This document shows, piece after piece, positions 1 through 36,512 of a stretch of DNA of 39,980 bases. Both the position numbers and the translations under genes were made by a program. Source of the DNA: a virus. The first letter of the stretch is position 1. Each line of letters opens with the position of its first letter. The stretch is taken from the IMG/VR virus record IMGVR_UViG_3300037189_017376, positions 1-39,980 of that record; one strand, given 5' to 3'. Below the pieces are notes generated by a model. The model had not been told where the DNA came from. It did no database searches and saw only the letters and a program-made list of their open reading frames with translations.

Positions 1-1377
1 GAGGCGGCCGAGGAGACCGAGGAGGCTCCGGTGGAGTCGACCGAGGAGGCGAGCCATCGGCTGCCGACGTCGTTCGGCGCCCCGTCGGCTCCCGCCCTGG
101 CCGCGGTCGGCACGGTGACCGAGGCCCGCCCGATCGTGCGTACCGCCCCCGAGTACCTGTACGCGGTGTCTGGCGTCCAGGGCAAGAACCCGGGCGATGC
201 GTTCGACTCGTGGTCGGAGGTCGCCGCAGCGGCTGCCCGCCGTGGTGCGAGCCTCAACCCGACGACGAGCGAGCGGTTCGAGATCGCCCGCATCAAGGGC
301 AACTACTCGGCTGACCGGGTGCTGTCCGAGGATGTGATGCTCAACGCCGCCAAGTTCGAGCCGGACGAACTGACCGCTGCGTTCTGCCCCCCGGCAACGC
401 CGTCCTACAACCTGGCGTGCGCCAACTCGCTGCGCCGCCCGGTGTTCGGCTCGCTGCCGTCGTTCCAGGCGCCGCGTGGTCGTGTGTCGATCATGCCCAG
501 CCCGGCCCTGTCGGATGTCACCACCGGCTTCGGCCAGTGGACGTCGACGAACGACAGCAACGTCAACGCCGTGAAGTCGGACTGCCAGACGATCACCTGC
601 GGCAGCCCGACCGAGTACGAGATGTACGGCGTGTACCGCTGCCTGACCGTCAAGAACATGATGGCGATGACGTACCCGGAACTGGTCGAGGCATACCTGA
701 ACCGCCTCGGTGCCGCCCAGGCTCGTCTCGCTGAGGAACTGATGCTCAACGCGATGGCGACGGCCAGCACCACGGTGAACGGTCGCCAGTTGGGCTACGG
801 CGGTTCGGTGACGGTGACGTCGACCATCCTGAACTACCTGGCGCTGTACCAGGAGACGCAGCGGTGGGACATCACCGAAAACATGAAGGCGTGGCTGCCC
901 CGCTGGACGCTGTACGCGATGAAGATGGACATCTTCCGTCGCCGTCAGACCAACGGCGGTCTGAACCAGGTCCCGAGCGATGCCGAGATCGAGGGCATGT
1001 TCCGTGATGTCGGCGTCGACGTGACGTTCTTCATGGATCGTCCGACTTGGGCGGTGGCGGTGCCGAGCATCGCCACGGCGAACACGCTGAACCTGCTGCC
1101 GCAGTCGGTGCAGATCCTCATCGCTCCCCCCGGCAAGTTCGCTGCGATCGACCGTGGCGAACTCGCCATCGGCGTGACCGGCAACAACATCTACCGGGAC
1201 AACGAGAGCAACCGCCGCAACCAGTTCACGTTCTTCTTCGAGAACTTCGAGGGTGTCGTGAACACCACGTCGTGCCCGGCGCACATCCTCGACATCCCGG
1301 CTTGCTGGAACGGTGTCCAGATCGACGACATCGTGATCAACTGCCAGGGTGGCGACGAGGTCGGCTACCAGTCCTGA
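1..1377 (+). CDS. Major capsid protein, HK97-like, 5' end cut by window
   Basis: The frame is open to base 1, so the gene begins upstream; the GTG at 31 is only an internal valine codon. The first visible residues are a Glu/Ala-rich stretch, followed by about 420 residues with the layout of an actinophage HK97-fold capsid protein: an N-terminal arm, a long helical middle (about residues 210-260 of the visible part) and a C-terminal beta domain. This subunit should form the icosahedral shell. The acidic lead-in could be a scaffold-like delta domain. A strong hairpin follows the stop by 20 nt, as expected for a very highly expressed gene. Assignment rests on overall pattern, length and position at the head of the structural genes. 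Confidence 0.8.
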   Translation, partial: EAAEETEEAPVESTEEASHRLPTSFGAPSAPALAAVGTVTEARPIVRTAPEYLYAVSGVQGKNPGDAFDSWSEVAAAAARRGASLNPTTSERFEIARIKGNYSADRVLSEDVMLNAAKFEPDELTAAFCPPATPSYNLACANSLRRPVFGSLPSFQAPRGRVSIMPSPALSDVTTGFGQWTSTNDSNVNAVKSDCQTITCGSPTEYEMYGVYRCLTVKNMMAMTYPELVEAYLNRLGAAQARLAEELMLNAMATASTTVNGRQLGYGGSVTVTSTILNYLALYQETQRWDITENMKAWLPRWTLYAMKMDIFRRRQTNGGLNQVPSDAEIEGMFRDVGVDVTFFMDRPTWAVAVPSIATANTLNLLPQSVQILIAPPGKFAAIDRGELAIGVTGNNIYRDNESNRRNQFTFFFENFEGVVNTTSCPAHILDIPACWNGVQIDDIVINCQGGDEVGYQS

Positions 1378-1490: not shown

Positions 1491-2363
1491 ATGACGTCGA
1501 CCAAGATGGCCCCGGTGCTCGGGCGGCTCCCCGCCCCGGAGATGACCTACGGGTTCTTCGACGCGGTGCGGGCGCTGCCGCTGCCCCCTGGCGTCGAGGA
1601 GCGGTGGCCGATGCATGGGCTGATGGTCGAGCCGCGTCCGGTGCGTGGCGCGTACCGCACCGATTCGGATTGTGGGCCGCTCGACCACACGACGGACACG
1701 CCGCCTGCGTGTGAGACGTCGATCGAATTCCTGCCGTTCCGCATCTATGACGTGATGGGCTACTCGACGGCGTTGTCGGTGATGGAAGAAGACTACGAGT
1801 CCCGTGTCGTCGACCGTCTCCGTGATCTGGCGTCGTACCTGTTCGCCCTGGAACTGGTCGATGCAGCCGGATCTGGTTCGGGCTTCGGTCTGTCGCAGAC
1901 GGCAACCGCCCCGACGACCCCGGCGTTCGGCGCTGGTGCGCTGGAACTCGGCCTCGGTGTGGCGATGTTGGAGAACGAACTGTCACGCCGCCTCCGTGGC
2001 CGCCAGGGCATGATCTTCGTCGGCCCGGGGCTGTTCACGCAGATCGTCGACGAATGCGACTTGCGGTTCGATGGCACCCGCTGGGTGACGCCGCTCGGCA
2101 ACGTGGTCGTCACTGATTCGGCGTGGGCTGACATCGCCCAGCCGTCCGGCCAGGCCGCTCCTGGCGCGACCGAGGACTGGATCTACGGTTCGTCGGAGGT
2201 GTTCTACGCGTCGACCACGCCGGAACTGCTCGGCAATCGCAGCGACTCGTTCTTGCAGCGGCAGCGTCACAACGACATCCGCCGTTTCGCCGAAGGGTAC
2301 GGTCTGCTCGCGTTCGAGACGCAGACCGTGACTGCGGTGAAGGTCAACTACGACGCGGCCTGA
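1491..2363 (+). CDS. Capsid-proximal structural protein, 290 aa
   Basis: The start is fixed by a strong ribosome binding site (AAGGAGG) about 6 nt before ATG. The protein has no motif I can name. A middle segment (about residues 155-215) carries a long helix followed by a GRQGMIFVGP stretch and a VTPLGNVVVTDS stretch. This resembles uncharacterised proteins that often sit directly after actinophage capsid genes. Its place between the capsid gene and small structural genes suggests a capsid-associated or decoration role, or a diverged capsid-like fold. No catalytic signature is seen. Confidence 0.6.
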   Translation: MTSTKMAPVLGRLPAPEMTYGFFDAVRALPLPPGVEERWPMHGLMVEPRPVRGAYRTDSDCGPLDHTTDTPPACETSIEFLPFRIYDVMGYSTALSVMEEDYESRVVDRLRDLASYLFALELVDAAGSGSGFGLSQTATAPTTPAFGAGALELGLGVAMLENELSRRLRGRQGMIFVGPGLFTQIVDECDLRFDGTRWVTPLGNVVVTDSAWADIAQPSGQAAPGATEDWIYGSSEVFYASTTPELLGNRSDSFLQRQRHNDIRRFAEGYGLLAFETQTVTAVKVNYDAA

Positions 2364-3853: not shown

Positions 3854-4807
3854 ATGAGCACCCCGGGGATCTACCGAGGGGACGCCTCCCGCCTCGGCCA
3901 AGGCGAACTTGATCTCCGTCCCGCAAACCACATTGTGCGGTTCCGTGCCGGGCAGCAAGGGTTCTGGAACCCGCCTGCGGGTGTGCGGGTTGTGCGTATG
4001 CGGGGCTTTGCGGGCGGCGGCGGTGGCGGCAGTGGCCGCATCGACGTTGCCGGTCAGGGACGCGGCGGGGGCACGGGCGGCGGCGGTGGTGGCGCGTTCG
4101 ATGTGTGGTTCGATCTGCTCGGCTATGACGTTGAACGGAACTGGTTGCGGCAGTCGTGGCAGTACAGCGTCGGCCGTGGCGGCATCGGCGGCGCAGCAGC
4201 GACGTCCGGTGCGGCAACGAACGGCAACGCCGGTGCGGCGGGCGGCAACACGACACTGATTCTGCCGAACGCACCCCATCAAACGCTGCCGGTGACCATC
4301 ACTGCTGGCGGCGGCGGCGCAGGGGCAGGCGGCACGAACGCAGCCGGTACGGGCGGCACTGCTGGCACTGGCGCGATCCCAGGTACGGCGGGCGGCGCAT
4401 CGAACACTGGTGGCGCGGCAGTGGCAGGTACGGCAGGTACTGCGTTGCAAGCCACTGGCGGCCAATGCTGTGGCGGCGGCGGCGGCGGTGGCATCACTGC
4501 CGGTAACGCCAACCAGGCTGGTGGTGCCGGTGGCGGTCATGCCTCGACCGGCATTGCCCTCACGGGAGGCGCTGCCGGTGCCGCAGCCGCGCCCGGCCAG
4601 CATGGCTTTGCGTCGCCGTTCGGCATCCAAGGCGGCGTTGGCGGCGGCGGTGGTGGCGGCAACAACGGTGTGGCTGGCGCTGGCGGCGCAGGCGGATTCC
4701 CGGGCGGCGGCGGCGGCGGCGGTGGTGCGACGATCACGACGACCGGCACGTCGGGTGCGGGCGGCTACGGCAGCGACGGGCTGATCATCATCGAATACTT
4801 CTGGTGA
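3854..4807 (+). CDS. Glycine-rich virion protein, 317 aa
   Basis: The ATG follows a GAGG sequence at 3843. The first 50 residues are ordinary and end with a PPAGVRVVRMRGFAG strand. After that the protein is dominated by runs of 4-8 glycines separated by Ala/Thr/Asn strands, ending in a conserved-looking GSDGLIIIEYFW C-terminus. Gly-rich domains with this kind of ending are typical of phage fibre or surface proteins that form polyglycine-helix bundles. I infer a fibre or head-fibre role. The glycine runs are encoded by GGC/GGT tracts, which could slip during replication. Confidence 0.65.
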   Translation: MSTPGIYRGDASRLGQGELDLRPANHIVRFRAGQQGFWNPPAGVRVVRMRGFAGGGGGGSGRIDVAGQGRGGGTGGGGGGAFDVWFDLLGYDVERNWLRQSWQYSVGRGGIGGAAATSGAATNGNAGAAGGNTTLILPNAPHQTLPVTITAGGGGAGAGGTNAAGTGGTAGTGAIPGTAGGASNTGGAAVAGTAGTALQATGGQCCGGGGGGGITAGNANQAGGAGGGHASTGIALTGGAAGAAAAPGQHGFASPFGIQGGVGGGGGGGNNGVAGAGGAGGFPGGGGGGGGATITTTGTSGAGGYGSDGLIIIEYFW

Positions 4808-6762: not shown

Positions 6763-6768
6763 TAGTAT
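6763..6768 (+). promoter_or_regulatory. -10 box opening the glycosylation cassette
   Basis: TAGTAT lies 7 nt before the ATG at 6776, with no ribosome binding site. The alternative ATG at 6767 lies inside the box. This is the only such box before the eight overlapping genes 6776-14127. Confidence 0.6.
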
Positions 6769-6775
6769 GTCCATC

Positions 6776-7777
6776 ATGCGTGTCATTCAGATCGGCAACT
6801 TCGGCCCTGAGCACTCCACGGAGAACCACCTGTTGCGGGCGTTGCGCTCGAACGACGTCGAGGTGTGGCCGATGCAGGAGAACGACCCGGCGACGTTCGC
6901 GACGCTTGCCAATGGTGATTGGCCCGATGTCGACTGGGTGCTGTGGACCCGCACCGGCTGGGACTGGGATTCGTTTTACCCGGGCGGGCGGTTGCAGGCG
7001 ATCTTCGATCAGCGCAAGTTCCTCCGCCGCTGTCGGGGTGCTGGCATTCCGACTGTCGGCTACCACCTCGACATCTGGTGGGGGCTGGGTCGCGAGCAGC
7101 AGGTGTGGGAGGAGCCGTTCTTCGAATGCTCGGTCGTCATCACCGCCGACGGCGGTCACTCTGACGAGTGGCAGCGCGCTGGCGTCAACCACGTCTGGAT
7201 GGCACCCGGTGTTTCCGCCCCCGAGTGCGAGCCGGGTCATTTCGACCCGGAGATGCACTCCAAGTTGGCGTTCGTCGGCTCCTGGCAGGGCGGCTACCAC
7301 ACCGAACACCAGCATCGCTACGAACTCGTCGAATGGTTGAAGCGCAACTTCCGCCAGCACTGCGAGTTCTGGCCTCGTCTCGGCCAGCCTGCGGTGCGCG
7401 GAGAGGCGTTGCGCAACCTGTACGCATCGGTCGACGTGCTGATCGGCGATTCGTGCTTTGCCGGTCAGGTGCCGAACTACTGGTCGGATCGCATCCCCGA
7501 GACCGTCGGTCGTGGCGGTCTGCTGATCCACCCGGATGTGCCTGGCCTCAACGAACAGTTCACGCCCGGGGAACATCTGCTCACCTGGCAGGCCGGTGAT
7601 TGGGATGCGCTTGGCGCTCAGATCGAGTACGCCCTGTCGAACCCGACAAAGATGGCTGAGATCCGCGCTGCCGGACGCGCCCATGTGGTCGCCCGCCACA
7701 CCTATGAGGTGCGTATGCGCCAAGTGGTCGAGCTGCTGTTCCCGAAACCGAAGCAGCGCAAGAAGGCGGCTAAGTGA
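6776..7777 (+). CDS. Glycosyltransferase, GT-B type (CgeB-like)
   Basis: The 333-aa protein has a Rossmann-like N-terminus (MRVIQIGNFG) and a C-terminal half typical of GT-B enzymes. The ETVGRGGLLIHPDVPGLNEQF region near residue 243 corresponds to the nucleotide-sugar-binding segment of the Glyco_trans_1_2/CgeB family. It should transfer a sugar from an activated donor in the cytoplasm. The C-terminus is Lys-rich (KPKQRKKAAK). It leads the cassette and its stop overlaps the next start (GTGA). Donor and acceptor are unknown. Confidence 0.75.
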   Translation: MRVIQIGNFGPEHSTENHLLRALRSNDVEVWPMQENDPATFATLANGDWPDVDWVLWTRTGWDWDSFYPGGRLQAIFDQRKFLRRCRGAGIPTVGYHLDIWWGLGREQQVWEEPFFECSVVITADGGHSDEWQRAGVNHVWMAPGVSAPECEPGHFDPEMHSKLAFVGSWQGGYHTEHQHRYELVEWLKRNFRQHCEFWPRLGQPAVRGEALRNLYASVDVLIGDSCFAGQVPNYWSDRIPETVGRGGLLIHPDVPGLNEQFTPGEHLLTWQAGDWDALGAQIEYALSNPTKMAEIRAAGRAHVVARHTYEVRMRQVVELLFPKPKQRKKAAK

Positions 7778-8499
7778 AGCCGTGGCTGAAGAAGGTGGCC
7801 GCCGTCGCCAAGGCAGCCACCGCATACCATCCGGTATGCGAGACCCACGGTGAACCGCACCAGCGCATCACCGTCGCTTCCGCCCTCGGCCCGATGCTCG
7901 TGTTTGATGCCGACCGTTACCGCGACACGCCCGGCTATTGCGTCGGAGACGATGAGGTGTCGCGCTCGTTCGCCCTCTACGGCACATGGGAGGTGCGCAA
8001 CGCGCGCATCTTCGAAGATGCCGTGGCCGAACACCCCGGCATCGTCCTCGACATCGGCTGCCATGTCGGCTGGTACTCGCGAATCGCCAGGTGGCTCAAC
8101 CGCGACGTGATCGCGTTCGATGCCGTCACCGAACACATCGAGATGTGCAAGGCGAACGCACCCGGCGTCCACGCGATGCAGATGTGGTTCGACGAACACA
8201 CCGGCACCCTTCCCGTCGCTGGCGCCCCCGAGATCGCCGCCGTCAAGATGGACATCGAAGGCGCTGAACAGCACGCATTGCGGATGATCGAGCCGCTGAT
8301 TGACGCCGGGAACGTGGCGACGATCCTGATGGAAGTGTCGCCCGTGTTCAATGACTCGTATCCGGCAGTGGTGCGCAGCCTTTTCGAACGCGGCTACCAG
8401 GCGGAGGTCACTGTGCCGTTCCGGCAGTTGACCGTTGACAACCTCGATGCGGTGCTCGCCGAGCACCCTCAGTTCGACGTCCTGTTCAGGAGGGCATGA
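7774..8499 (+). CDS. FkbM-family SAM methyltransferase (1)
   Basis: The 241-aa protein carries the SAM-binding motif VLDIGCHVGWYS at 91-102 and the FkbM signature VKMDIEGAE at 157-165. FkbM enzymes O-methylate hydroxyl groups on sugars and polyketides. In a cluster of glycosyltransferases it most likely caps or decorates a glycan. The GTG start overlaps the preceding stop. The last residues are followed directly by ATGATG, where the next gene begins. Confidence 0.85.
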   Translation: MKPWLKKVAAVAKAATAYHPVCETHGEPHQRITVASALGPMLVFDADRYRDTPGYCVGDDEVSRSFALYGTWEVRNARIFEDAVAEHPGIVLDIGCHVGWYSRIARWLNRDVIAFDAVTEHIEMCKANAPGVHAMQMWFDEHTGTLPVAGAPEIAAVKMDIEGAEQHALRMIEPLIDAGNVATILMEVSPVFNDSYPAVVRSLFERGYQAEVTVPFRQLTVDNLDAVLAEHPQFDVLFRRA

Positions 8500-9233
8500 T
8501 GCAGAAGAAGGCCATCAACGGCCGGTGGGTGATCTGGACGACCGATGCGATCGCCGAATGGGACGGCCTGACCGGCGATCCGGCAGTACCGAACGGGTGG
8601 GAGCACGAACGCCTCACTGCGATGCAGCGTCGGCTCAAATACGGCGACGTGCTTTTCGACATCGGCACCGAGCACGGCGCTCTGTCAGCAGTGATCGCAC
8701 GCGAGTTTGTCGGCCCTGAGAACATGGTGCTGATCGAGCCGTCGCCTGAGTTCTGGCCCAACATCCGTAAGCACTGGGTGTACAACGGCTTGCAGGAGCC
8801 GATGGCGTTCTGGCCCGGCTTCTTCAGCGATGAGACTGATGCGAACGCCACGAAGGAGAACCTGACATGGCCGAAGGAGGCGCACTTGTACGCCCCCGAG
8901 ACGCCGGGCCTCGCGTACCGTTCGCTGGTCAGCCCTGGTCGCATCCCGTCGACGACCCTCGACGACTTCGTGCGCCGCTTGAAGGTCGCCCCCGGCGCGT
9001 TGAACATCGACGTCGAAGGGGCCGAACTGAAGATCATGCGCGGCGCCGTGAAGACGTTGGCCGACTTCTCGTTGCATCACATCTGGATCTCGATCCACCC
9101 CGATCTGATGGAACGCGATTTCGGCTACACCAAGGAAGATCTGCTCGCCTTCATGGATCAGCAGGGATGGGTCGGTAAGTATCTCGCGACTGACCACGAG
9201 GAACACTGGGAGTTCACAAGGATGCCGGTATGA
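8496..9233 (+). CDS. FkbM-family SAM methyltransferase (2)
   Basis: This second, diverged FkbM-type enzyme has 245 aa, with VLFDIGTEHGALSA at about 52-65 and LNIDVEGAELKIMRGA at 169-184. The start is one of two adjacent ATGs at 8496/8499 behind AGGAGG, overlapping the previous stop. Identity to its neighbour looks low outside the motifs, so the two probably methylate different positions or different sugars and are not a recent duplication. Confidence 0.85.
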   Translation: MMQKKAINGRWVIWTTDAIAEWDGLTGDPAVPNGWEHERLTAMQRRLKYGDVLFDIGTEHGALSAVIAREFVGPENMVLIEPSPEFWPNIRKHWVYNGLQEPMAFWPGFFSDETDANATKENLTWPKEAHLYAPETPGLAYRSLVSPGRIPSTTLDDFVRRLKVAPGALNIDVEGAELKIMRGAVKTLADFSLHHIWISIHPDLMERDFGYTKEDLLAFMDQQGWVGKYLATDHEEHWEFTRMPV

Positions 9234-9847
9234 CCACCTCGCAGGCGATCATCCACTGGAACACCCTCGCAACGACGTCCGCGGGCGCGGTGTCGGCGGT
9301 GTTCTCTGAGCCGGACATGGACCAGCACACGCTGCACGACGTCGCGTTGATCGTCGACTCGTTGCGATGCCCGGAAGATGCGCGACTGGTCGAGATCGGC
9401 TGTGGTGTCGGGCGGCTGACGTCTCTGGTCGCGGACGTGACCGGCGCGTCGATCCTCGGCCTCGACATCTCCGAAAAGATGATCGGCTGGGCGGAACAGT
9501 GGAAGCACCCCGATGTGAATGTCGCGTTCGCTGTCGGTGATGTGTCGGCGCTGCGTGCCCTCGTCGCGGAGGGGCACAGCGCGCACGGCATCTATTCGAT
9601 GCTCGTCTTCCAGCACGTCCCTGATCTCGAAGTGCAGGCATACCTGCGAGCAATGACGGACTTGCTCGTACCCGGCGGCGTCATGGTGTTCCAGTACGTC
9701 GTTGGTGACATCGCTGCCGACTTCGACCACCGTCGTTCACAGAATCGAATGGTGTCGTGGCTTTCGTCGTGCGGCCTCGACTATGTCACGATGCCCGATT
9801 CTCGGCATTCCGAATGGCATTGGGTGAAAGCGAGGAAGCCAGAGTGA
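9230..9847 (+). CDS. Class I SAM-dependent methyltransferase
   Basis: The 205-aa protein has motif I VEIGCGVGRLT at 54-64 and the acidic-loop motif LGLDIS at 76-81, followed by an FQHVPD segment and a LVPGGVMVFQ strand. This is the layout of small-molecule Methyltransf_11/25 enzymes. The start overlaps the preceding stop (ATGA). Its substrate is unknown; context suggests a sugar or glycan intermediate. Confidence 0.8.
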   Translation: MTTSQAIIHWNTLATTSAGAVSAVFSEPDMDQHTLHDVALIVDSLRCPEDARLVEIGCGVGRLTSLVADVTGASILGLDISEKMIGWAEQWKHPDVNVAFAVGDVSALRALVAEGHSAHGIYSMLVFQHVPDLEVQAYLRAMTDLLVPGGVMVFQYVVGDIAADFDHRRSQNRMVSWLSSCGLDYVTMPDSRHSEWHWVKARKPE

Positions 9848-11487
9848 ACGTCCCGATCTACTGGCTGACCAACCACGACAACATTGATGCAATCGGGCCG
9901 TGGGACACCGGACTGCTGCGCCATCTGTTCGAAGGGCGCCTCGGTGACGTCGGCATCGACTTTGACACCACCTGGCAGAACGCACGACACATCGAGCCGT
10001 GTGACGTGGCGGTTGTCGTGCTGCCCGCACGCCATCACTACAGCGACGAGGACGTCGACTGGCTGAACGAGGAACTCGCCAAGGTACGGGCCGCTGTGCT
10101 GATCCTGTGCGGCGACGAAGATGCAGGGTTCCCGTGGAAGCGAATCGTGCATCAGAACATCCGTTGGTGGGTGCAGATGCCGGACCCGAAGCATTACGTC
10201 GACATGCAGGAATGGGCGTTCTTCTTCGGCAACGGCTGGCGATACGAATATCGCGACTGGATCGCCAACAATCCGACGTTCGAAGAGAGGGCTTACAGTT
10301 GGGGATTCGCCGGGCAGGGCACTAATGCAGCACGCCGACGAGCAATTCAGGGTTTGCGACGGGCCGCAGTTCGCGTTCCCGGCGTCCTCGCTGAGACCGC
10401 AGGGTTCGCTCAGGGGATCGCGCCCGAGGCGTACGCCGCGCAGATGGCGAACACTTGGATCGCGCCCTGCCCCGGCGGGCCGGTGTCCGTCGACACATTC
10501 CGGCTGTACGAGGCACTGGAAGCAGGTTGCATCCCGCTCGTCGACCGTCACTCGGCGACAGCGGTGTGGTCGCCCTACTGGGAAATGGTCTACGGCAACA
10601 TGCCGTTCCCGGCTGTCCCTGACTGGGACGCAGTAGGAGGCATCATCGAAGATGTCCTGCCCGATCGCCACCGCTGGGCGGCGCTGTGCTCGTCGTGGTG
10701 GCAGCAGCGCAAATACGAACTGGTCTCCCGGCTCCGGGCCGATCTGATCGCGTGCGGCGCCCCATCGTCTCCGCCTCGGGTGACGGCGATCATCACGACG
10801 TCTCCCGTGCCGTCGAACCCGTCGCTGGACATCATCGCGGAAACGCTGGCGTCGATCCCCGAGAACTTCGAGGTGGTCATTGCCGCCGACGGAGTCCGTC
10901 CCGAGCAGGACTACCTGGCACAGTCGTACTACGATTTCGTTTACCGGCTGTGCGCCTTGGCCCAACGTCAGCCGCGACGGGTGACCGTCCACTTCGACGG
11001 GGTATGGCGGCATCAGGCTGGCACGACGGCTGCGGCCCTCGACTTGGTCGACACGCCCGTGATCCTGTTCCTCGAACATGACACACCGCTCGTGCTGGAT
11101 GAGGTGATCGACTGGGACGCCTGCGTCGAACTGGTTGCCGAAGGGCACCTCGATGTTCTCCGCTTCCATCATGAGGCCCAAGTTCTCGACGTCCATCGCC
11201 GCCTGATGTTGGATCGCGTCACCACGTCGATGCTCGGTGTCCCGTTGCGACGCACGGTGCAATGGTCGCAGCGTCCGCATCTGGCTGGGACCGACTACTA
11301 CCGCACCATCCTGGCCGACTACTTCCCGCGGTCAGCAAGGACGATGATCGAGGACCGGATGCATTCGGTTGCGCAGAGCGAGAAAGGGCATCGCCTCGCG
11401 CTGTATCACCCCGAAGGGAACATCAAGCGGTCGTACCATCTCGACGCTCGCGGCGACGAGAGCAAATTCGATATGCGGTTCGCGTAA
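9844..11487 (+). CDS. Two-domain glycosyltransferase (exostosin-like + GT2-like)
   Basis: The 547-aa protein starts at a GTG overlapping the previous stop. Residues 1 to about 300 end in a GT-B-like acceptor block (RLYEALEAGCIPLV near residue 225), like exostosin/GT47 C-termini. Residue 311 onward starts again as a GT-A fold (RVTAIITTSPVP) with an acidic FLEHDTPL segment near residue 404 in the place of the DXD metal-binding motif. The fusion could add two successive sugars. The C-terminus ends in a basic, His-rich region. The domain split is inferred from sequence pattern only. Confidence 0.65.
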   Translation: MNVPIYWLTNHDNIDAIGPWDTGLLRHLFEGRLGDVGIDFDTTWQNARHIEPCDVAVVVLPARHHYSDEDVDWLNEELAKVRAAVLILCGDEDAGFPWKRIVHQNIRWWVQMPDPKHYVDMQEWAFFFGNGWRYEYRDWIANNPTFEERAYSWGFAGQGTNAARRRAIQGLRRAAVRVPGVLAETAGFAQGIAPEAYAAQMANTWIAPCPGGPVSVDTFRLYEALEAGCIPLVDRHSATAVWSPYWEMVYGNMPFPAVPDWDAVGGIIEDVLPDRHRWAALCSSWWQQRKYELVSRLRADLIACGAPSSPPRVTAIITTSPVPSNPSLDIIAETLASIPENFEVVIAADGVRPEQDYLAQSYYDFVYRLCALAQRQPRRVTVHFDGVWRHQAGTTAAALDLVDTPVILFLEHDTPLVLDEVIDWDACVELVAEGHLDVLRFHHEAQVLDVHRRLMLDRVTTSMLGVPLRRTVQWSQRPHLAGTDYYRTILADYFPRSARTMIEDRMHSVAQSEKGHRLALYHPEGNIKRSYHLDARGDESKFDMRFA

Positions 11488-12521
11488 TGAAGATCGGGCT
11501 GATTGCCAGGTCCGAGATCGCTCGCGGCATCGCGATCCAGTCGAAGAACTTCTTCGACAACATGCCGGTTGACAAGGTCCTGCTGGTGCGGATGCCGCGC
11601 CTTGATTGCGTCGAAGATCCGTCGTGGTATCCGGGCCGCACCGACGCCGTGTACGACCCGCTGAATCACCAACTCGAAGAGGATCTGGTGCGCGGTTGGC
11701 TCGCCGGGCTGGACATCGTGTTCACGGTCGAAACACCGAACGACTGGCGTATCCCGACCTGGTGCCGGGAGATGGGCGTCAGGTTGGTCATCCAGGGCAA
11801 CCCCGAATTCGTCCGGCACGGCCAGCGCGGCTACGAATACATGCCTCACCCCGACGCATGGTGGTGGCCGTCGATGTGGCGGCAGGGTCTCGTCCCGGCT
11901 GGACCGGTGATGCCGGTCCCGATGCCTGACGACATCCCCGAACGTGTCCGAGACGACGATCCTCGCCTGCATGTCGTACACGTCATCGGCAAATTGGCAT
12001 TCGCTGACCGCAATGGCACCGACCTGTTCGCGCAGGCGATCCCGCAGATCACTCGCGACATCAAGTTGACGATCCACTGCATCGACGGCGGCCTACACGC
12101 AGAAATGCCTCGCCACCGGCCGGTCGAGATGCAGTTCCAGTTGGAGCCGGTTGTCGACCGCTGGGAGATGTACCAGAACCAGGATCTGCTGATGCTGCCG
12201 CGCCGGTACGGCGGGCTGTGTCTGCCTGCGTTGGAGGCTGCGGCGTCCGGGCTGATGGTGGCGATGTCGGACATCTCGCCGAACGAGCATTTCACAGCGC
12301 ACCGGTTCGGCGGGACGATTGTCCGCAACCTGAATCTTGCTGCCGGACCTGTGCCGTGCTTCGACTCGAATCCGACTGCGATGGCAAGGATGATCGACCA
12401 ACTGGCCGATCTGCACGACGACATCGAATGGGATCGGCAGCGCGAGATGCAGATGGCGATGGTGCCTCGCTGGTCGGAATGGCGTCAGCGGTACCTCGAC
12501 GAAATGGAGCGGATGCTGTGA
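11487..12521 (+). CDS. Glycosyltransferase, GT4-like
   Basis: The 344-aa protein begins at an ATG sharing one base with the previous TAA. The C-terminal half contains PRRYGGLCLPALEAAASG near residues 236-253, the hallmark of GT4 donor-sugar binding (EAxAxG, with the upstream Glu replaced by Leu-Cys). A linker with VPMPDD separates the two domains. It is expected to be a cytoplasmic retaining glycosyltransferase. The substituted acidic residue in the E-x7-E motif is worth noting. Confidence 0.75.
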   Translation: MKIGLIARSEIARGIAIQSKNFFDNMPVDKVLLVRMPRLDCVEDPSWYPGRTDAVYDPLNHQLEEDLVRGWLAGLDIVFTVETPNDWRIPTWCREMGVRLVIQGNPEFVRHGQRGYEYMPHPDAWWWPSMWRQGLVPAGPVMPVPMPDDIPERVRDDDPRLHVVHVIGKLAFADRNGTDLFAQAIPQITRDIKLTIHCIDGGLHAEMPRHRPVEMQFQLEPVVDRWEMYQNQDLLMLPRRYGGLCLPALEAAASGLMVAMSDISPNEHFTAHRFGGTIVRNLNLAAGPVPCFDSNPTAMARMIDQLADLHDDIEWDRQREMQMAMVPRWSEWRQRYLDEMERML

Positions 12522-13171
12522 GGATTCTCGATTTGTTCTGCGGTGCTGGCGGTGCAGCGATGGGGTTCCACAGGGCGTTCCCCGATGCGGACATCTTTGG
12601 CATCGACATCGAGTCACAACCGTCGTACCCGTTCTTCTTCAAGAAGACCGATGCCATCGACTATCCGCTCGATGGGTTCGATCTGATCCATGCGTCGCCG
12701 CCGTGCCAGGACCATTCCTCTCTCGCCCGGGTCAACCAAAACAAGGCCGGAACGGCATGGATGCTCGGCCATACGATCGACCGTCTGGCCGCTCACGGCG
12801 GCTACTGGGTGGTGGAGAACGTCGAAGGCGCGCAGATGCCTGCGTCTCCGCACGCCGTGAAGTTGTGCGGGTCGATGTTCGGTCTCGATGTGCGGCGCCA
12901 CCGCAAGTTCGCCCTCTCGTTCCCCGTGGAGCAGCCGAAGTGCAACCACGCAGCGCAAACACCGAGGTTTGTGTCGCTCAACGCCTATCAGCGGCGCAAG
13001 GGAATCCTTGCTTCGGTTGTGTCGGTCCACGGCAAGACCCACTACGCGGGCGAAGCAGAGATCCGCCGCAAGGCGATGGACATCGACTGGATGGACGGGG
13101 TCGAGATCTCGCAGGCGATCCCTCCGGCCTACACCGAGCACATTGGGAATGCGCTGAAGGTGCTGCTGTGA
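12518..13171 (+). CDS. Cytosine-C5 DNA methyltransferase, short orphan form
   Basis: This compact enzyme has 217 aa with all key motifs: motif I LDLFCGAGGAAMGF (4-17), motif IV with catalytic Cys63 in SPPCQDHS, motif VI ENVEGA (100-105), motif VIII RRHRKF (126-131) and motif X IPPAYTEHIGNA (201-212). The target-recognition region is very small (about 135-195). It methylates C5 of cytosine in a short DNA site. No restriction enzyme is nearby, so host-restriction evasion is the usual role. Unusually, it is translationally coupled inside the glycosyltransferase operon (GTGA overlaps on both sides). Confidence 0.9.
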   Translation: MRILDLFCGAGGAAMGFHRAFPDADIFGIDIESQPSYPFFFKKTDAIDYPLDGFDLIHASPPCQDHSSLARVNQNKAGTAWMLGHTIDRLAAHGGYWVVENVEGAQMPASPHAVKLCGSMFGLDVRRHRKFALSFPVEQPKCNHAAQTPRFVSLNAYQRRKGILASVVSVHGKTHYAGEAEIRRKAMDIDWMDGVEISQAIPPAYTEHIGNALKVLL

Positions 13172-14127
13172 GGCGCGTCGACGTGGTGGCATCCGAGCCG
13201 CACTACATGAAGCATCTGATGCCGATCTGGGCTGCGCTCCCAGAGCGGCTGCGCGGCTGGGTGCATCCGCTGGTCGATGTCGGGGCCGTGACGCGTCCCC
13301 CGTTTGGTCGGGTGGCGCTTGTCGCCGGGTGGCAGGACGTGTCGGCGTTGCGTGGGCAGTGCGAGATGATCTACGTCGAACATGGGGCCGGGCAGACGTA
13401 TGTCGGATCTGCTGACCCGTCCTATTCGGGCAGCGGTGGGGTCCGACATGACGGCGTCATCGGCTACATCGCCCCGTCGCAGGACGTTGCCGACCGTTGG
13501 CGTCGCGCCCCGGCGGCGGCGGTCGGCTGCCCGAAGATGGATACCTGGTTCTCTCGCCCGTTCGCGCCGGGGAAGCCCCCGACGATCTGCTTCGCGTGGC
13601 ATTGGGAATGCAACCTTGTGCCTGAGACCCGGTCGGCGTGGCGACACTACGCGGATCGCTTCCGTGAGATCGTCGACGTCTACGAGCAGCAGGGGTGGCG
13701 TGTCGTCACCCACTTCCATCCGAAGTGGCGCAACCGTCTCGATCTCGACATGGAAGCGATGGGGGTCGCGGTCCTGCCGAGGGAAGAGGACGTCTTTTCG
13801 ACCGTCGATGTTCTCGCCGTCGACAACTCGTCGCTCGGCTATGAGTTCGCGTCGCTTGGCCGTCCGGTGCTCACACTTGACGCGCCCTGGTATCGCCAGG
13901 ACGTCGAGCACGGGCTGCGGTTCTGGCAGGCGCCGCCAGGGCCGCGGTTCGAAGGACCGGAACAACTGCTGGGTCTGAATCTGTGGGAGTTGCACGATGA
14001 CACGCCGCGACGTCGTGCCCATCTTGTCGCCGGACAGTTTGCGGCCGATTACGCCTACGCCTATCGTGATGGCAGTTCGGCGGAGCGGGCTGCGGCGTTC
14101 ATCGAACAACTGCTCGACGGGAAGTAG
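13168..14127 (+). CDS. Glycosyl/glycerophosphotransferase-like (TagF-like GT-B)
   Basis: The 319-aa protein starts at a GTG overlapping the previous stop. The C-terminal segment VDNSSLGYEFASLGRPVL (near 217-234) matches the D-x-S-S-x-x-x-[DE] block of CDP-glycerol glycerophosphotransferases and related GT-B enzymes. IYVEHGAGQTYVG near residue 67 corresponds to the N-terminal H-G loop of the same family. It could polymerise or attach a polyol phosphate or a sugar. It is the last gene of the cassette; its TAG stop forms part of the -10 box for the next gene. Confidence 0.7.
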   Translation: MRRVDVVASEPHYMKHLMPIWAALPERLRGWVHPLVDVGAVTRPPFGRVALVAGWQDVSALRGQCEMIYVEHGAGQTYVGSADPSYSGSGGVRHDGVIGYIAPSQDVADRWRRAPAAAVGCPKMDTWFSRPFAPGKPPTICFAWHWECNLVPETRSAWRHYADRFREIVDVYEQQGWRVVTHFHPKWRNRLDLDMEAMGVAVLPREEDVFSTVDVLAVDNSSLGYEFASLGRPVLTLDAPWYRQDVEHGLRFWQAPPGPRFEGPEQLLGLNLWELHDDTPRRRAHLVAGQFAADYAYAYRDGSSAERAAAFIEQLLDGK

Positions 14128-14136: not shown

Positions 14137-14847
14137 ATGGCCCCTCGTCTTGCGTGTGAAGCATTCGCGACGCTCACGGACGTCCTGTCGGCACCGTGTG
14201 GTTGCTCGTTCACCGAAGCCGAAGATGGCGCGCTGCTCACCGAACTGGTTGATGAAGCCACCGACATGTTGTACGTCCTGTCCGGCGGCCGGGTGACGGG
14301 ACGCTGCACGCGCAAGGTGTGGCCGATCAAGACCGGCGAGTGCAGCGACTACGAATACCAGTCTTGGGTCTCTCGCGACAGCGTCGATTCGATCCCCCTC
14401 CCTGGCCCCGACACTGCGGTCACGCAGGTGAAGATCGACGGTTCGGTCGTGTCGCCGAGCGACTACTTCCTGCTCGATGGCTACAAACTGGTGCGGCGGA
14501 GCGGCGACTGGCCGGTGTCGAACGACATCACAAAGGCTGACACCCAACAGGGCACGTTCACGATCACGGTGCAGTTCGGCTGGGACATTCGCGAGATTGC
14601 ACGTCGCGCTGCGATCGAGTTGACCTGTCTGCTCTACTCGTCGCCCGCTCGCCTGTCCCGCCTGCGCGGTGTGGTGTCGGCAAACATCCAGGGTGTCAGC
14701 GTGCAGATGGACCCGGAAGAGGTGGCCGAGATGGGGCTGCCCGAGTTGAACCGTTTCATGGACTTCCACGCACCGCGAGGTGTTGCCGTGCTCGGTGTCT
14801 GGTCCCCCGAATTGTCGCATGGGTGGCGGCTGGCTTCGGTGTCGTGA
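14137..14847 (+). CDS. Head-tail connector (adaptor, HK97 gp6-like)
   Basis: The 236-aa protein has helical N- and C-terminal parts around a beta core (residues about 55-150). This is the layout of actinophage head-to-tail adaptors that bind under the portal. It is the first gene after the sugar cassette and returns the map to virion assembly. The start has a TAGTCT box but no ribosome binding site. A Cys-containing N-terminal segment (LSAPCGCSFTEAEDG) is typical of these adaptors. Confidence 0.6.
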   Translation: MAPRLACEAFATLTDVLSAPCGCSFTEAEDGALLTELVDEATDMLYVLSGGRVTGRCTRKVWPIKTGECSDYEYQSWVSRDSVDSIPLPGPDTAVTQVKIDGSVVSPSDYFLLDGYKLVRRSGDWPVSNDITKADTQQGTFTITVQFGWDIREIARRAAIELTCLLYSSPARLSRLRGVVSANIQGVSVQMDPEEVAEMGLPELNRFMDFHAPRGVAVLGVWSPELSHGWRLASVS

Positions 14848-17175: not shown

Positions 17176-17181
17176 TATTAT
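17176..17181 (+). promoter_or_regulatory. -10 box for leaderless start at 17189
   Basis: TATTAT lies 7 nt before the ATG. TTGCCC lies exactly 17 nt further upstream (17153-17158) and could act as a -35. There is no ribosome binding site. Confidence 0.6.
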
Positions 17182-31082: not shown

Positions 31083-31288
31083 AGTAGATGGTTGATCAGC
31101 GCGAACCCTTCGAGCGCGTCGAGCAACCGAACCAGATCCGGTTCGCTGAGTTGCTTCCATGATGTGACGTCTCGGCGGAGGAGCACTTCGGCGAGATGAA
31201 GGCGATCGTCGCGATCCAGGCCGTATCTGTCGGCGTACTGCATCGCCTTTCGCAATTTCACTATCCGCGGCTCCATCGCCACTCCCAT
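31073..31288 (-). CDS. Lone minus-strand helical protein, 71 aa
   Basis: The sequence is rich in conserved-looking helices: DRLHLAEVLLRRDVTSWKQL followed by DLVRLLDALEGF. Small phage proteins with this pattern occur beside recombination genes, but I cannot name a function. An internal ATG at 31276 has GGGAG before it and may be the true start (67 aa). It is the only minus-strand gene inside the rightward operon, convergent with 30762 and divergent from the WhiB gene with 15 bp between them. Confidence 0.65.
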   Translation of the reverse strand: MGVAMEPRIVKLRKAMQYADRYGLDRDDRLHLAEVLLRRDVTSWKQLSEPDLVRLLDALEGFALINHLLQT

Positions 31289-31289
31289 C

Positions 31290-31295
31290 TACGCT
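31290..31295 (+). promoter_or_regulatory. -10 box for leaderless start at 31304
   Basis: TACGCT lies 8 nt before the GTG of the WhiB gene and directly upstream of the minus-strand gene's start codon. Confidence 0.45.
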
Positions 31296-31303
31296 GTGCG
31301 CTC

Positions 31304-31717
31304 GTGGCGCGCCCGAAGAACACCGACGGTGACATCGACGACCTTGGGGTCCTCGTCACCGCCGCGTACGGCCTCGACACCTCATGGATGGACCGAGGCG
31401 TCTGCCGCGGCTGGGGGACTGCCCGGCCAGGCAAGCCGACACCGTGGCAAGTGGCCCCAGGTCGCAGATATGACGGCATCTCCGGCGCCGAACTGGTCAA
31501 GTACGCGCTTCTCAACTGCTTCAACTGCAACGCCCAGTACGACTGCGCCGAGTATGCAGTGCGGGCAGTGATGATTGCAGGGACGTGGTCAATGCCGATC
31601 ACACAGTTGCGCTGGCTCCAAGGGCAGCGGGAACGCGCGTTCGATCTGATCGCCATCGCCCGCGAGCGCGGGGTCGCAATGCAGGAAGTCGCAGCCATGT
31701 ACGGCGACGAAGCATAG
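31304..31717 (+). CDS. WhiB-family Fe-S transcription regulator
   Basis: The 137-aa protein has the four-cysteine cluster motif: C34, then C72-x2-C75-x5-C81, as in WhiB proteins that hold a [4Fe-4S] cluster. The usual GVWGG turn is degenerate here (GTWSMP, 93-98), followed by a basic helix RWLQGQRERAFDL. WhiB proteins occur in actinobacteria and their phages, where one (mycobacteriophage TM4) is known to repress a host WhiB gene. The start is GTG at 31304; the frame is open further upstream, but that region is the antisense gene. Confidence 0.85.
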   Translation: MARPKNTDGDIDDLGVLVTAAYGLDTSWMDRGVCRGWGTARPGKPTPWQVAPGRRYDGISGAELVKYALLNCFNCNAQYDCAEYAVRAVMIAGTWSMPITQLRWLQGQRERAFDLIAIARERGVAMQEVAAMYGDEA

Positions 31718-35474: not shown

Positions 35475-35572
35475 GCTTTCACCTCCAACTCGTAGACGGC
35501 GGCGTAGTTGAGCATCGCCCATTTGGCGTCGCCTGCGGCAATGTGCCGCTTGTCGTTGTCGAGCGTAGTCAT
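35471..35572 (-). CDS. Micro-gene, 33 aa
   Basis: A complete ORF (MTTLDNDKRHIAAGDAKWAM onward, ending LEVKA) sits exactly between two genes, with 4-bp ATGA-type overlaps at both ends. That spacing, shared by most genes of this operon, argues strongly that it is translated. A weak AGGCAG precedes it. Function is unknown. Confidence 0.6.
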   Translation of the reverse strand: MTTLDNDKRHIAAGDAKWAMLNYAAVYELEVKA

Positions 35573-36249
35573 CGGCTGCCTTTCGAGGGCTTCTGGAAGA
35601 TGTAGAGCATCGAGTAGTTGTTGCGGGCGTGCTGCTGTGAACGGCCCGGCGGTTGCGCCCGGCTGTGACCGAGGTGGATGAGGCGTTCGTGGAGGGTCAT
35701 CCCGAGCAGATCGGTCGCATCGCGGTACATCCAGTGCGCTGCGGGTTGCAATCGCCCGCTACTGACGTAGTCCATGACTTTCGTCATGACGAAACCCCCC
35801 GGGCGGAGCAGGTCGTAGGCGACTCGCATCCCCTCGAAGTTGTAGTCGTGGAGCCGGGCGGGCGATGCGGCGGCAACTTTCAGGCCGTAGCGGTCCATGA
35901 ACTCGGGGATCGTCGACGTGTCTCGCCCGCCCATCGAGACGTACGGCGGGTCGAACACGACGACGTCGAACTGCTGGCGGAGCGTGAACCATGCGTCGGC
36001 GTCGGTGTAGTCGCGACACGTCCAGTGCTGAACGCCGAGCCGAGCGAAGATGTCGGCGAGGACAGAGTCATCGGCGGCAGGGTCGACGTTGGCCCACAGT
36101 TCGCCGCTGTGCTTGTAGTTCGTCCACCACTTCCCTCGCCCGAAGGTGAGGTCGACGATGCGGTCGGTGGGCTTGATCAGTCCGAGTTCGACGACGGCCT
36201 CGATCATCTCGGCGTTCGTGCGCCACGGTGTTGCTGCAAGAACGGTCAC
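35569..36249 (-). CDS. DNA N-methyltransferase (DPPY type)
   Basis: The GTG at 36249 overlaps the previous stop (GTGA). The 226-aa protein has a diverged SAM motif IVDLTFGRGK (31-40), the catalytic DPPY at 100-103 in FDPPYVSMGG, and an RPGGFVMTKVMDYV strand near 160. Such enzymes methylate adenine N6 or cytosine N4. No target-recognition domain or restriction enzyme is seen, so protection of phage DNA or regulation is likely. This is the second DNA methyltransferase in the window. Confidence 0.8.
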   Translation of the reverse strand: MTVLAATPWRTNAEMIEAVVELGLIKPTDRIVDLTFGRGKWWTNYKHSGELWANVDPAADDSVLADIFARLGVQHWTCRDYTDADAWFTLRQQFDVVVFDPPYVSMGGRDTSTIPEFMDRYGLKVAAASPARLHDYNFEGMRVAYDLLRPGGFVMTKVMDYVSSGRLQPAAHWMYRDATDLLGMTLHERLIHLGHSRAQPPGRSQQHARNNYSMLYIFQKPSKGSR

Positions 36250-36512
36250 AACAGCACCGCACCTTCCGGCCGTTCGCCGCCGACGATCGTCGAAGCCAAC
36301 TTCACGATTCGGGCCTTCTGCCCGGTGACGATGACCGTCGACTTGGTTGCCGACCCGAACGCCAACTGGCTGCGGGTCGAGCCGTGGATGATGGTCATCG
36401 AGGAACGCGGCAGGCTGATGAGGGCAGGATCGTCGTCTCCGTTGAGCAGCAACATCCGCCGCCCCGGCCACAGTTCGACGTGCGGATGCTCGTCGATGTC
36501 GATCGTTCTCAT
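36246..36512 (-). CDS. Hypothetical protein, 88 aa
   Basis: The ATG at 36512 follows GGAAGGAG and overlaps the upstream stop. The protein opens with beta strands (VELWPGRRMLLLNGDDDP) and has a Ser/Thr-rich middle. It is compact, soluble and not recognised. Coupling to the DPPY methyltransferase on one side and RusA on the other suggests a role in DNA metabolism. Confidence 0.6.
   Translation of the reverse strand: MRTIDIDEHPHVELWPGRRMLLLNGDDDPALISLPRSSMTIIHGSTRSQLAFGSATKSTVIVTGQKARIVKLASTIVGGERPEGAVLL

Follow-up and report, generated by a model that had tools for sequence, protein, structure and literature searches.

The window, that is, the whole stretch of 39,980 nucleotides of IMG/VR virus record IMGVR_UViG_3300037189_017376 that was analysed here, carries on its plus strand a compact cassette of eight open reading frames (A to H, positions 6776-14127; Table 1). 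The close packing of these genes described in the initial annotation is borne out by their coordinates, since all seven junctions overlap, by 4, 4, 4, 4, 1, 4 and 4 bp from A to H. Their products are four glycosyltransferase-like proteins (A, E, F and H), three SAM methyltransferases (B, C and D) and one C5 DNA methyltransferase (G), and no membrane-like segment was found in any of the eight. The cassette does part the head genes from the connector, with members of phrog_777 and phrog_779 upstream and the head-tail adaptor as the first structural gene downstream.

Table 1. Features of the cassette and of its flanks in the window
Feature	Position	Strand	Remarks
Major head protein	1..1377	+	phrog_777; 5' part missing at window edge
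Second head-region protein	1491..2363	+	phrog_779
Thr/Ser/Ala/Val/Pro-rich repetitive protein, 529 aa	4816..6405	+	upstream of cassette
TAGTAT, -10-like hexamer (candidate promoter)	6763..6768	+	7 nt upstream of ATG 6776
A	6776-7777	+	alternative in-frame ATG at 6767 possible
B	7774-8499	+	
C	8496-9233	+	
D	9230-9847	+	
E	9844-11487	+	
F	11487-12521	+	
G	12518-13171	+	
H	13168-14127	+	
Head-tail adaptor	14137-14847	+	phrog_783, E 3.5e-20; first structural gene downstream of cassette

The word "inserted", used earlier for this arrangement, fits the finding of the island at several alternative positions of the head module in related phages, but not the composition of the genes. The GC content of the cassette (61-66%) and its GC3 (0.78-0.83) resemble those of the flanking genes, so that nothing in its composition visibly marks it as newly acquired, and a recent foreign origin was rejected. 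Closure of the window into a circle was likewise rejected: although its final 297 bases share a reading frame with the first gene across the join, the N-terminus created in this way shows no similarity to the major head proteins of relatives (560-630 aa), so that the agreement in frame is fortuitous and the record represents a fragment. As for transcription, the single -10 box proposed for the cassette is present as the string TAGTAT, a candidate for a leaderless-type promoter, and similar strings (TAnTATGnCC..CATG) occur in the window at 17176, 28773 and 31715; a sigma-70 -35/-10 consensus promoter was looked for and was not found.

Gene A, the conserved opening gene of the cassette, encodes a CgeB-like GT-B protein (PF13524 Glyco_trans_1_2, 67 bits, above the curated cut-off; phrog_28745, E 2e-44), and F a GT4-type enzyme (PF13692 Glyco_trans_1_4, 38.5 bits, above the curated cut-off). 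Gene presence was counted over 47 loci with complete flanks, 39 of which have A and 38 F. In tblastn searches the deposited phages matched by A were Streptomyces phages only, where the homologue and a methyltransferase lie directly behind the tailspike gene.

Regarding the methyltransferases, the two FkbM proteins announced in the initial annotation are fully recovered for C (PF05050, 33.1 bits, cut-off 22.7), the commonest methyltransferase of the cassette (28 of the 47 loci), and less clearly for B, a SAM-dependent, FkbM-like protein that stays below that cut-off (16.6 of 22.7 bits), although both match phrog_8156 (E 2e-12 for B). D is the further SAM methyltransferase that had been expected, of class I (PF13649 Methyltransf_25, 58 bits, above the curated cut-off). 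The C5 DNA methyltransferase is also present: G is of the small C5-cytosine type (PF00145 DNA_methylase, 30 bits, above the cut-off; phrog_363, E 2.5e-26). Its inclusion among the glycan genes did not hold, however. G was found in the cassette of the window only and is 40-45% identical to actinophage DNA methyltransferases; because its closest relatives are ordinary phage enzymes of this kind, membership in a glycan pathway was rejected and G is probably, to judge from sequence, a passenger with a separate purpose.

The count of four glycosyltransferase-like proteins, one of them (E) with two domains, agrees with the Pfam matches of A, F and H and with the model of E. This AlphaFold model (pLDDT 94.8) has an N-terminal exostosin/GT47-GT114-like GT-B domain followed by a GT-A-like domain, in which E411-x-D413 is invariant; in several relatives the two are encoded by separate adjacent genes. 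Foldseek placed EXT1/EXT2 and EXTL3 as the best matches, covering both domains, and the modelled order of a GT47-like GT-B and then a GT-A domain in a single chain is that of the animal exostosins (GT47 + GT64). In contrast to these, E lacks a membrane anchor and the relative placement of its domains differs (rmsd about 20 A). At the sequence level the exostosin/RXYLT1 match is weak, with 16.3 of the 33.4 bits of the curated cut-off for PF03016, which 36 of 57 members of the E family match at E <= 0.01. The C-terminal domain gave no GT64 sequence match, only weak GT2/WavE ones, which makes E EXT-like and not EXT, and no match to the PDB by sequence. The best result of a PDB profile search with E was A075L of chlorovirus PBCV-1, the xylosyltransferase of the major capsid protein glycan, whose Arg208 contacts the donor diphosphate and Glu211 the ribose (PMC11571054). 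These residues align with R220 and E223 in the N-terminal domain of E, both invariant in all 57 members, so that these two donor-binding residues of A075L are retained.

H (319 aa) exceeds the cut-off for PF04464 Glyphos_transf (38.3 against 22.1 bits), 46 of its 54 relatives match this family, and its model (pLDDT 95.1) has TagF/TarL as the best Foldseek matches. It carries the motifs HG, HP and D-x-[ST]-S-x3-E, with H72, H184, P185, D219, S222 and E226 invariant over 53 alignment rows, and its HP and DxSS align with TarL; it differs from TagF/TarL in its length of 319 aa and in having no membrane-binding segment. The possible polyol-phosphate step suggested in the initial annotation thus finds support in fold and motif. 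H may be a CDP-polyol phosphotransferase or a transferase of a related kind, its donor and reaction being putative because UDP-GlcNAc 2-epimerases reach almost the same score. H occurs in 14 of the 47 loci, and in Rctr41k it stands alone, adjoining the capsid gene. No relatives were found in viral contigs with the H protein of the window as sole query; the H alignment as query did find them.

A search for the cassette elsewhere, also proposed earlier, showed that the core order A-(methyltransferases C/D/B)-E-F, often followed by H, recurs across diverse viruses. E matched at least 579 viral contigs and none of 50,697 deposited phage genomes, while 84,980 prokaryote genomes yielded 3 matching contigs, of which no fewer than two are clearly phage. 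The A-E-F core is co-inherited across diverse viruses, the distances of A, E and F being correlated (Mantel r 0.50-0.65, a level that none of 2000 permutations reached). In phages with head genes of the window type the island occupies four positions: it can lie on either side of the second head gene, towards the MCP or towards the adaptor, or else beyond the adaptor or ahead of the MCP. In L009 and L010 the place of the cassette holds a lone protein that looked glycosyltransferase-like by eye, had no Pfam match and was hence not counted. In many relatives the cassette adjoins terminase or ParB genes and not capsid genes, so that its placement indicates linkage to the late region more than to the capsid. 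Some cassettes also include sugar-nucleotide epimerases (L011, L016) or a SAM synthetase (L182).

Taken together, we consider it fairly probable that A to F and H belong to a single cytosolic pathway, expressed late, for an O-methylated glycan on a virion protein. The core enzymes occur together in hundreds of viruses and hardly in bacterial genomes, which suggests that the phages probably build their own glycan, most likely attached to the virus particles. Comparative genomics, together with the structure models, backs the multi-sugar, O-methylated glycan tied to head genes that had been predicted for this cassette. What was observed is the order of the genes, their families and folds, the conservation of donor-site residues, the co-inheritance and the location in the head module, and from these we infer acceptor, sugars and order of steps. 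A, both domains of E, and F would each add one sugar from a nucleotide-sugar donor, which could be host-derived or, in some relatives, supplied through the cassette-borne epimerases; C, with B and D, would methylate sugar hydroxyls, as chlorovirus A064R-D3 and A061L do; and H might add a unit that ends or bridges the chain, which could be polyol phosphate drawn from a CDP donor or could come from another NDP-sugar. G would share the operon but serve an unrelated function. The glycan could be short, branched or repeating, would be assembled before or during virion assembly, and its acceptor may be a head shell, head decoration or tail tube protein. The 529-aa protein upstream (T+S 24.6%, P 10%; no PHROG match) is a speculative candidate acceptor; this Ser/Thr-rich protein was not seen in the cassette-bearing relatives L004, L011 and L012, and an obligatory role was rejected for that reason.

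Such enzymes could instead alter a surface glycan or teichoic-acid-like polymer of the host and block the receptor for competing or progeny phages. The TagF/TarL-like fold of H, typical of wall polymers, would suit this, and serotype-changing phage glycosyltransferases are known (mentioned in PMC12619734). We regard it as unlikely, however: A to H include no membrane protein, flippase or lipid-linked donor enzyme, the cassette sits in the late structural module and was met mostly in virus contigs, none of them shown to be an integrated prophage, and lone H and the A homologue adjoin capsid (Rctr41k) and tailspike (Streptomyces phages) genes, respectively. The tailspike neighbours would in turn fit a glycan restricted to the tail fibre or tailspike that tunes adsorption and does not shield the particle, which we hold to be very improbable, as the relatives of the window carry the cassette beside head and head-tail genes and not fibre genes. 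A fibre glycan would still be a form of virion glycosylation.

The presence of a C5 methyltransferase within the operon, and of viral DNA-glycosylating transferases elsewhere (Pyle et al., as cited in PMC12619734), brings up a modification of DNA, in which G would make 5-methylcytosine, an oxygenase 5hmC, and A, E, F and H would add the sugars. Tet_JBP is absent from the window fragment, and it exceeds the cut-off in none of 40 records with E, many of them fragments, with one weak match (the L099 record). This lack argues against DNA-borne sugar. Only 5 of the 40 have a C5 methyltransferase, and the kin of G are ordinary actinophage enzymes. This route, rejected for the window since it has no oxygenase, seems very improbable to us.

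To our knowledge, glycosylated phage particles have been shown only recently, in a few mycobacteriophages. According to PMC12619734, which cites Freeman et al. 2023, these phages have their own glycosyltransferases and bear glycans on capsid and tail tube subunits. The pathway proposed here has in common with them tailed phages of Actinobacteria and phage-borne glycosyltransferases. The earlier comparison does not extend to homology, as no Mycobacterium phage was among the tblastn matches of A, E, F and H, and the cassette has far more enzymes, including methyltransferases and a TagF-like one, and its core family occurs in hundreds of viruses known only from uncultured material. A second parallel is PBCV-1, where soluble multi-domain glycosyltransferases and O-methyltransferases (A075L, A064R, A061L) build the major capsid protein glycan (PMC11571054, PMC9614988). 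The likeness lies in the A075L match of the N-terminal domain of E, with the donor-site Arg and Glu kept. PBCV-1, however, is an algal giant virus with an N-linked glycan, whereas the phage cassette is a compact operon, with a second GT-A-like domain in E and TagF/TarL similarity in H. We would also suggest, as a possible though doubtful extension, that A-E-F(-H) is a largely virus-restricted mobile system spread over tailed phages whose hosts differ widely (Acidimicrobiia MAG, candidate phyla radiation MAGs), with an exostosin-like bifunctional core, making an O-methylated polyol-phosphate capsid coat parallel to the chlorovirus capsid glycan.

The principle is thus known from mycobacteriophages and chloroviruses; the enzymes and their breadth appear to be new. 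If the virion is the acceptor, complex phage-made surface glycans would be widespread in nature yet go unseen among cultured phages. This would matter for adsorption, for the stability of the particle and for its recognition by the immune system, and the cassette would be a source of soluble viral enzymes with new specificities.

The cassette occupies eight + strand genes (A to H, in gene order) with successive overlaps of 4, 4, 4, 4, 1, 4 and 4 bp, flanked by head genes (phrog_777, phrog_779) on one side and the head-tail adaptor gene (phrog_783) on the other, so that the gene run described in the initial annotation, with its 1-4 bp overlaps and its splitting of head genes from the adaptor, was correct. 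Of the two FkbM methyltransferases proposed there, C was upheld, while for B the likeness is weak (see table). GC and GC3 of the cassette are similar to those of the neighbouring genes. The window, a 39,980-base virus record from IMG/VR, is a fragment, its first gene, for the major head protein (MCP), lacking the 5' part (560-630 aa in relatives). A TAGTAT box lies 7 nt upstream of the ATG at the cassette start, a leaderless arrangement. Judged from sequence, the TAnTATGnCC..CATG strings are candidate leaderless phage promoters, their frequency (3 found versus 0.85 expected) not being strong alone.

Features of the window and of contigs of relatives (L numbers), with Pfam results for A to H
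Feature	Position	Strand	Description
Cassette A-H	6776-14127	+	eight genes
A		+	Glyco_trans_1_2, above cut-off
B		+	FkbM-like, weak match
C		+	FkbM, above cut-off
D		+	Methyltransf_25, above cut-off
E	9844-11487	+	exostosin-like, weak match from own sequence alone
F		+	Glyco_trans_1_4, above cut-off
G		+	C5 DNA methyltransferase, above cut-off
H	13168-14127	+	Glyphos_transf, above cut-off
TAnTATGnCC..CATG strings	6763, 17176, 28773, 31715 (also 14125, 32341)		directly before gene starts; TAG sometimes the stop codon of the preceding gene
Glycine-rich protein	3854-4807		317 aa, minor-tail-like phrogs; adjoins a Thr/Ser-rich repetitive protein; in L006, it and the adjoining genes have close relatives (77-81% identity)
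WhiB-like	31196-31717		weak match (E-value 0.003, below cut-off); fits an actinobacterial host
DPPY-motif gene	35569-36471	-	probably a second DNA methyltransferase; genes that look SSB-like and RusA-like by eye are among those nearby
H-adaptor frame	L011:17161-18537		H continues in frame as the adaptor, giving a single 459-aa open frame; in one contig only, either a genuine fusion or an indel introduced by assembly
Interrupted A gene	L015:6321-8420		intein-like insert of ~370 aa within the conserved C-terminal domain; starts CVDENTEILTTRGW, ends FTGN ahead of SDRIPET
S-adenosylmethionine synthetase	L182:1721-2722		after E-F genes, on a contig from a Moranbacteria bin; a possible supplier of cofactor to the methyltransferases
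1044-aa gene	L181:13756-16890		downstream of the cassette; intein-splicing domain match just under cut-off

The AlphaFold model of E was confident (mean pLDDT 94.8), and its top PDB fold matches, covering both domains, were human EXT1/EXT2 and EXTL3, with which it shares the arrangement of a GT47-like GT-B domain ahead of a GT-A domain; the two are placed differently relative to each other. GT64 similarity of the C-terminal domain was not recognised by sequence search; its E-x-D is invariant (57/57). When the E profile was compared with PDB sequences, the best match (E-value 4e-4) was PBCV-1 A075L, the xylosyltransferase of the chlorovirus capsid glycan in which Arg208 contacts the diphosphate and Glu211 the ribose (PMC11571054). 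These align with R220 and E223 of E, invariant in 57 of 57 rows, in a pairing that applies a two-residue numbering offset read from the printed alignment. In at least eight loci each domain is encoded by its own gene, the two lying side by side with their order kept, and an extra gene for the C-terminal domain is present in L011 and L096; the domains are thus separable units, probably acting in one pathway.

The model of H (pLDDT 95.1) matched TagF and TarL best, with UDP-GlcNAc 2-epimerases close behind. H72-G73, H184-P185 and D219-x-x-S222-x3-E226 are invariant, the last two motifs aligning to TarL. The polyol-phosphate step that had been suggested is thus supported by the predicted fold and these motifs, without being proved. 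In virus Rctr41k, H by itself adjoins the capsid gene.

A related major head protein was detected at twelve loci. Exactly at the window's site, L004/L005 carry A-E-F-H and L012 carries A-C-E-F-H (A, E, F and H are 54-60% identical, C of L012 40%); the order in L011 is A-B-E(C-terminal)-epimerase-D-E-F-H, and the cassette is missing from L008, L009 and L010 despite the same head genes and adaptor. Among all loci with window-type head genes, four island sites could be distinguished: upstream of MCP, in the interval from MCP to the second head gene, in that from the second head gene to the adaptor, and downstream of the adaptor. Of 47 loci with complete flanks, most commonly in the order A C E F, 39 had A, 38 had F, 28 had C and 14 had H. 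Distances of A, E and F were correlated (Mantel r 0.50 for A-E, 0.65 for E-F and 0.61 for A-F; 0/2000 permutations each). Neighbour families in the wider set included major head, portal, head-tail adaptor, head maturation protease and terminase.

Searching with an alignment of E, relatives were found in at least 579 IMG/VR stretches and three times in 84,980 prokaryote genomes, always on contigs of metagenome-assembled genomes; both scans were pattern-based, and the counts are therefore lower bounds. The Acidimicrobiia contig has window-type head and tail genes; on that of Moranbacteria, inspection pointed to ParB-, terminase- and portal-like genes, the terminase without Pfam confirmation; that of Saccharibacteria, likely a phage, carries the cassette too, along with a large gene bearing an intein-like domain. 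Neither E nor F had matches among deposited phage genomes, and no PHROG was assigned to E.

The glycan synthesis proposed in the initial annotation is the best supported function; the sugars, the acceptor and the order of steps are those we infer. Like the chlorovirus pathway, in which A064R and A061L add and then methylate sugars (PMC9614988), the cassette combines glycosyltransferases and methyltransferases, and glycans on mycobacteriophage capsid and tail tube have been reported (Freeman et al., cited in PMC12619734). Since none of the eight proteins has membrane-like segments, they probably act in the cytosol. A role at the host surface is possible. G is closest to DNA methyltransferases from mycobacteriophages and other actinophages, and was found in none of the other cassettes. 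Glycosylation of the phage DNA itself is weakened as an explanation: Tet_JBP was not found in the window, and among 40 E-bearing records, many of them fragments, it passed the cut-off in none (one weak match), with a C5 methyltransferase in five.

No description of this cassette was found in a limited search of the literature. The kind of system is already known; what appear to be new are the enzyme set, with an EXT-like enzyme at its core, and how widely this set occurs in uncultured viruses.
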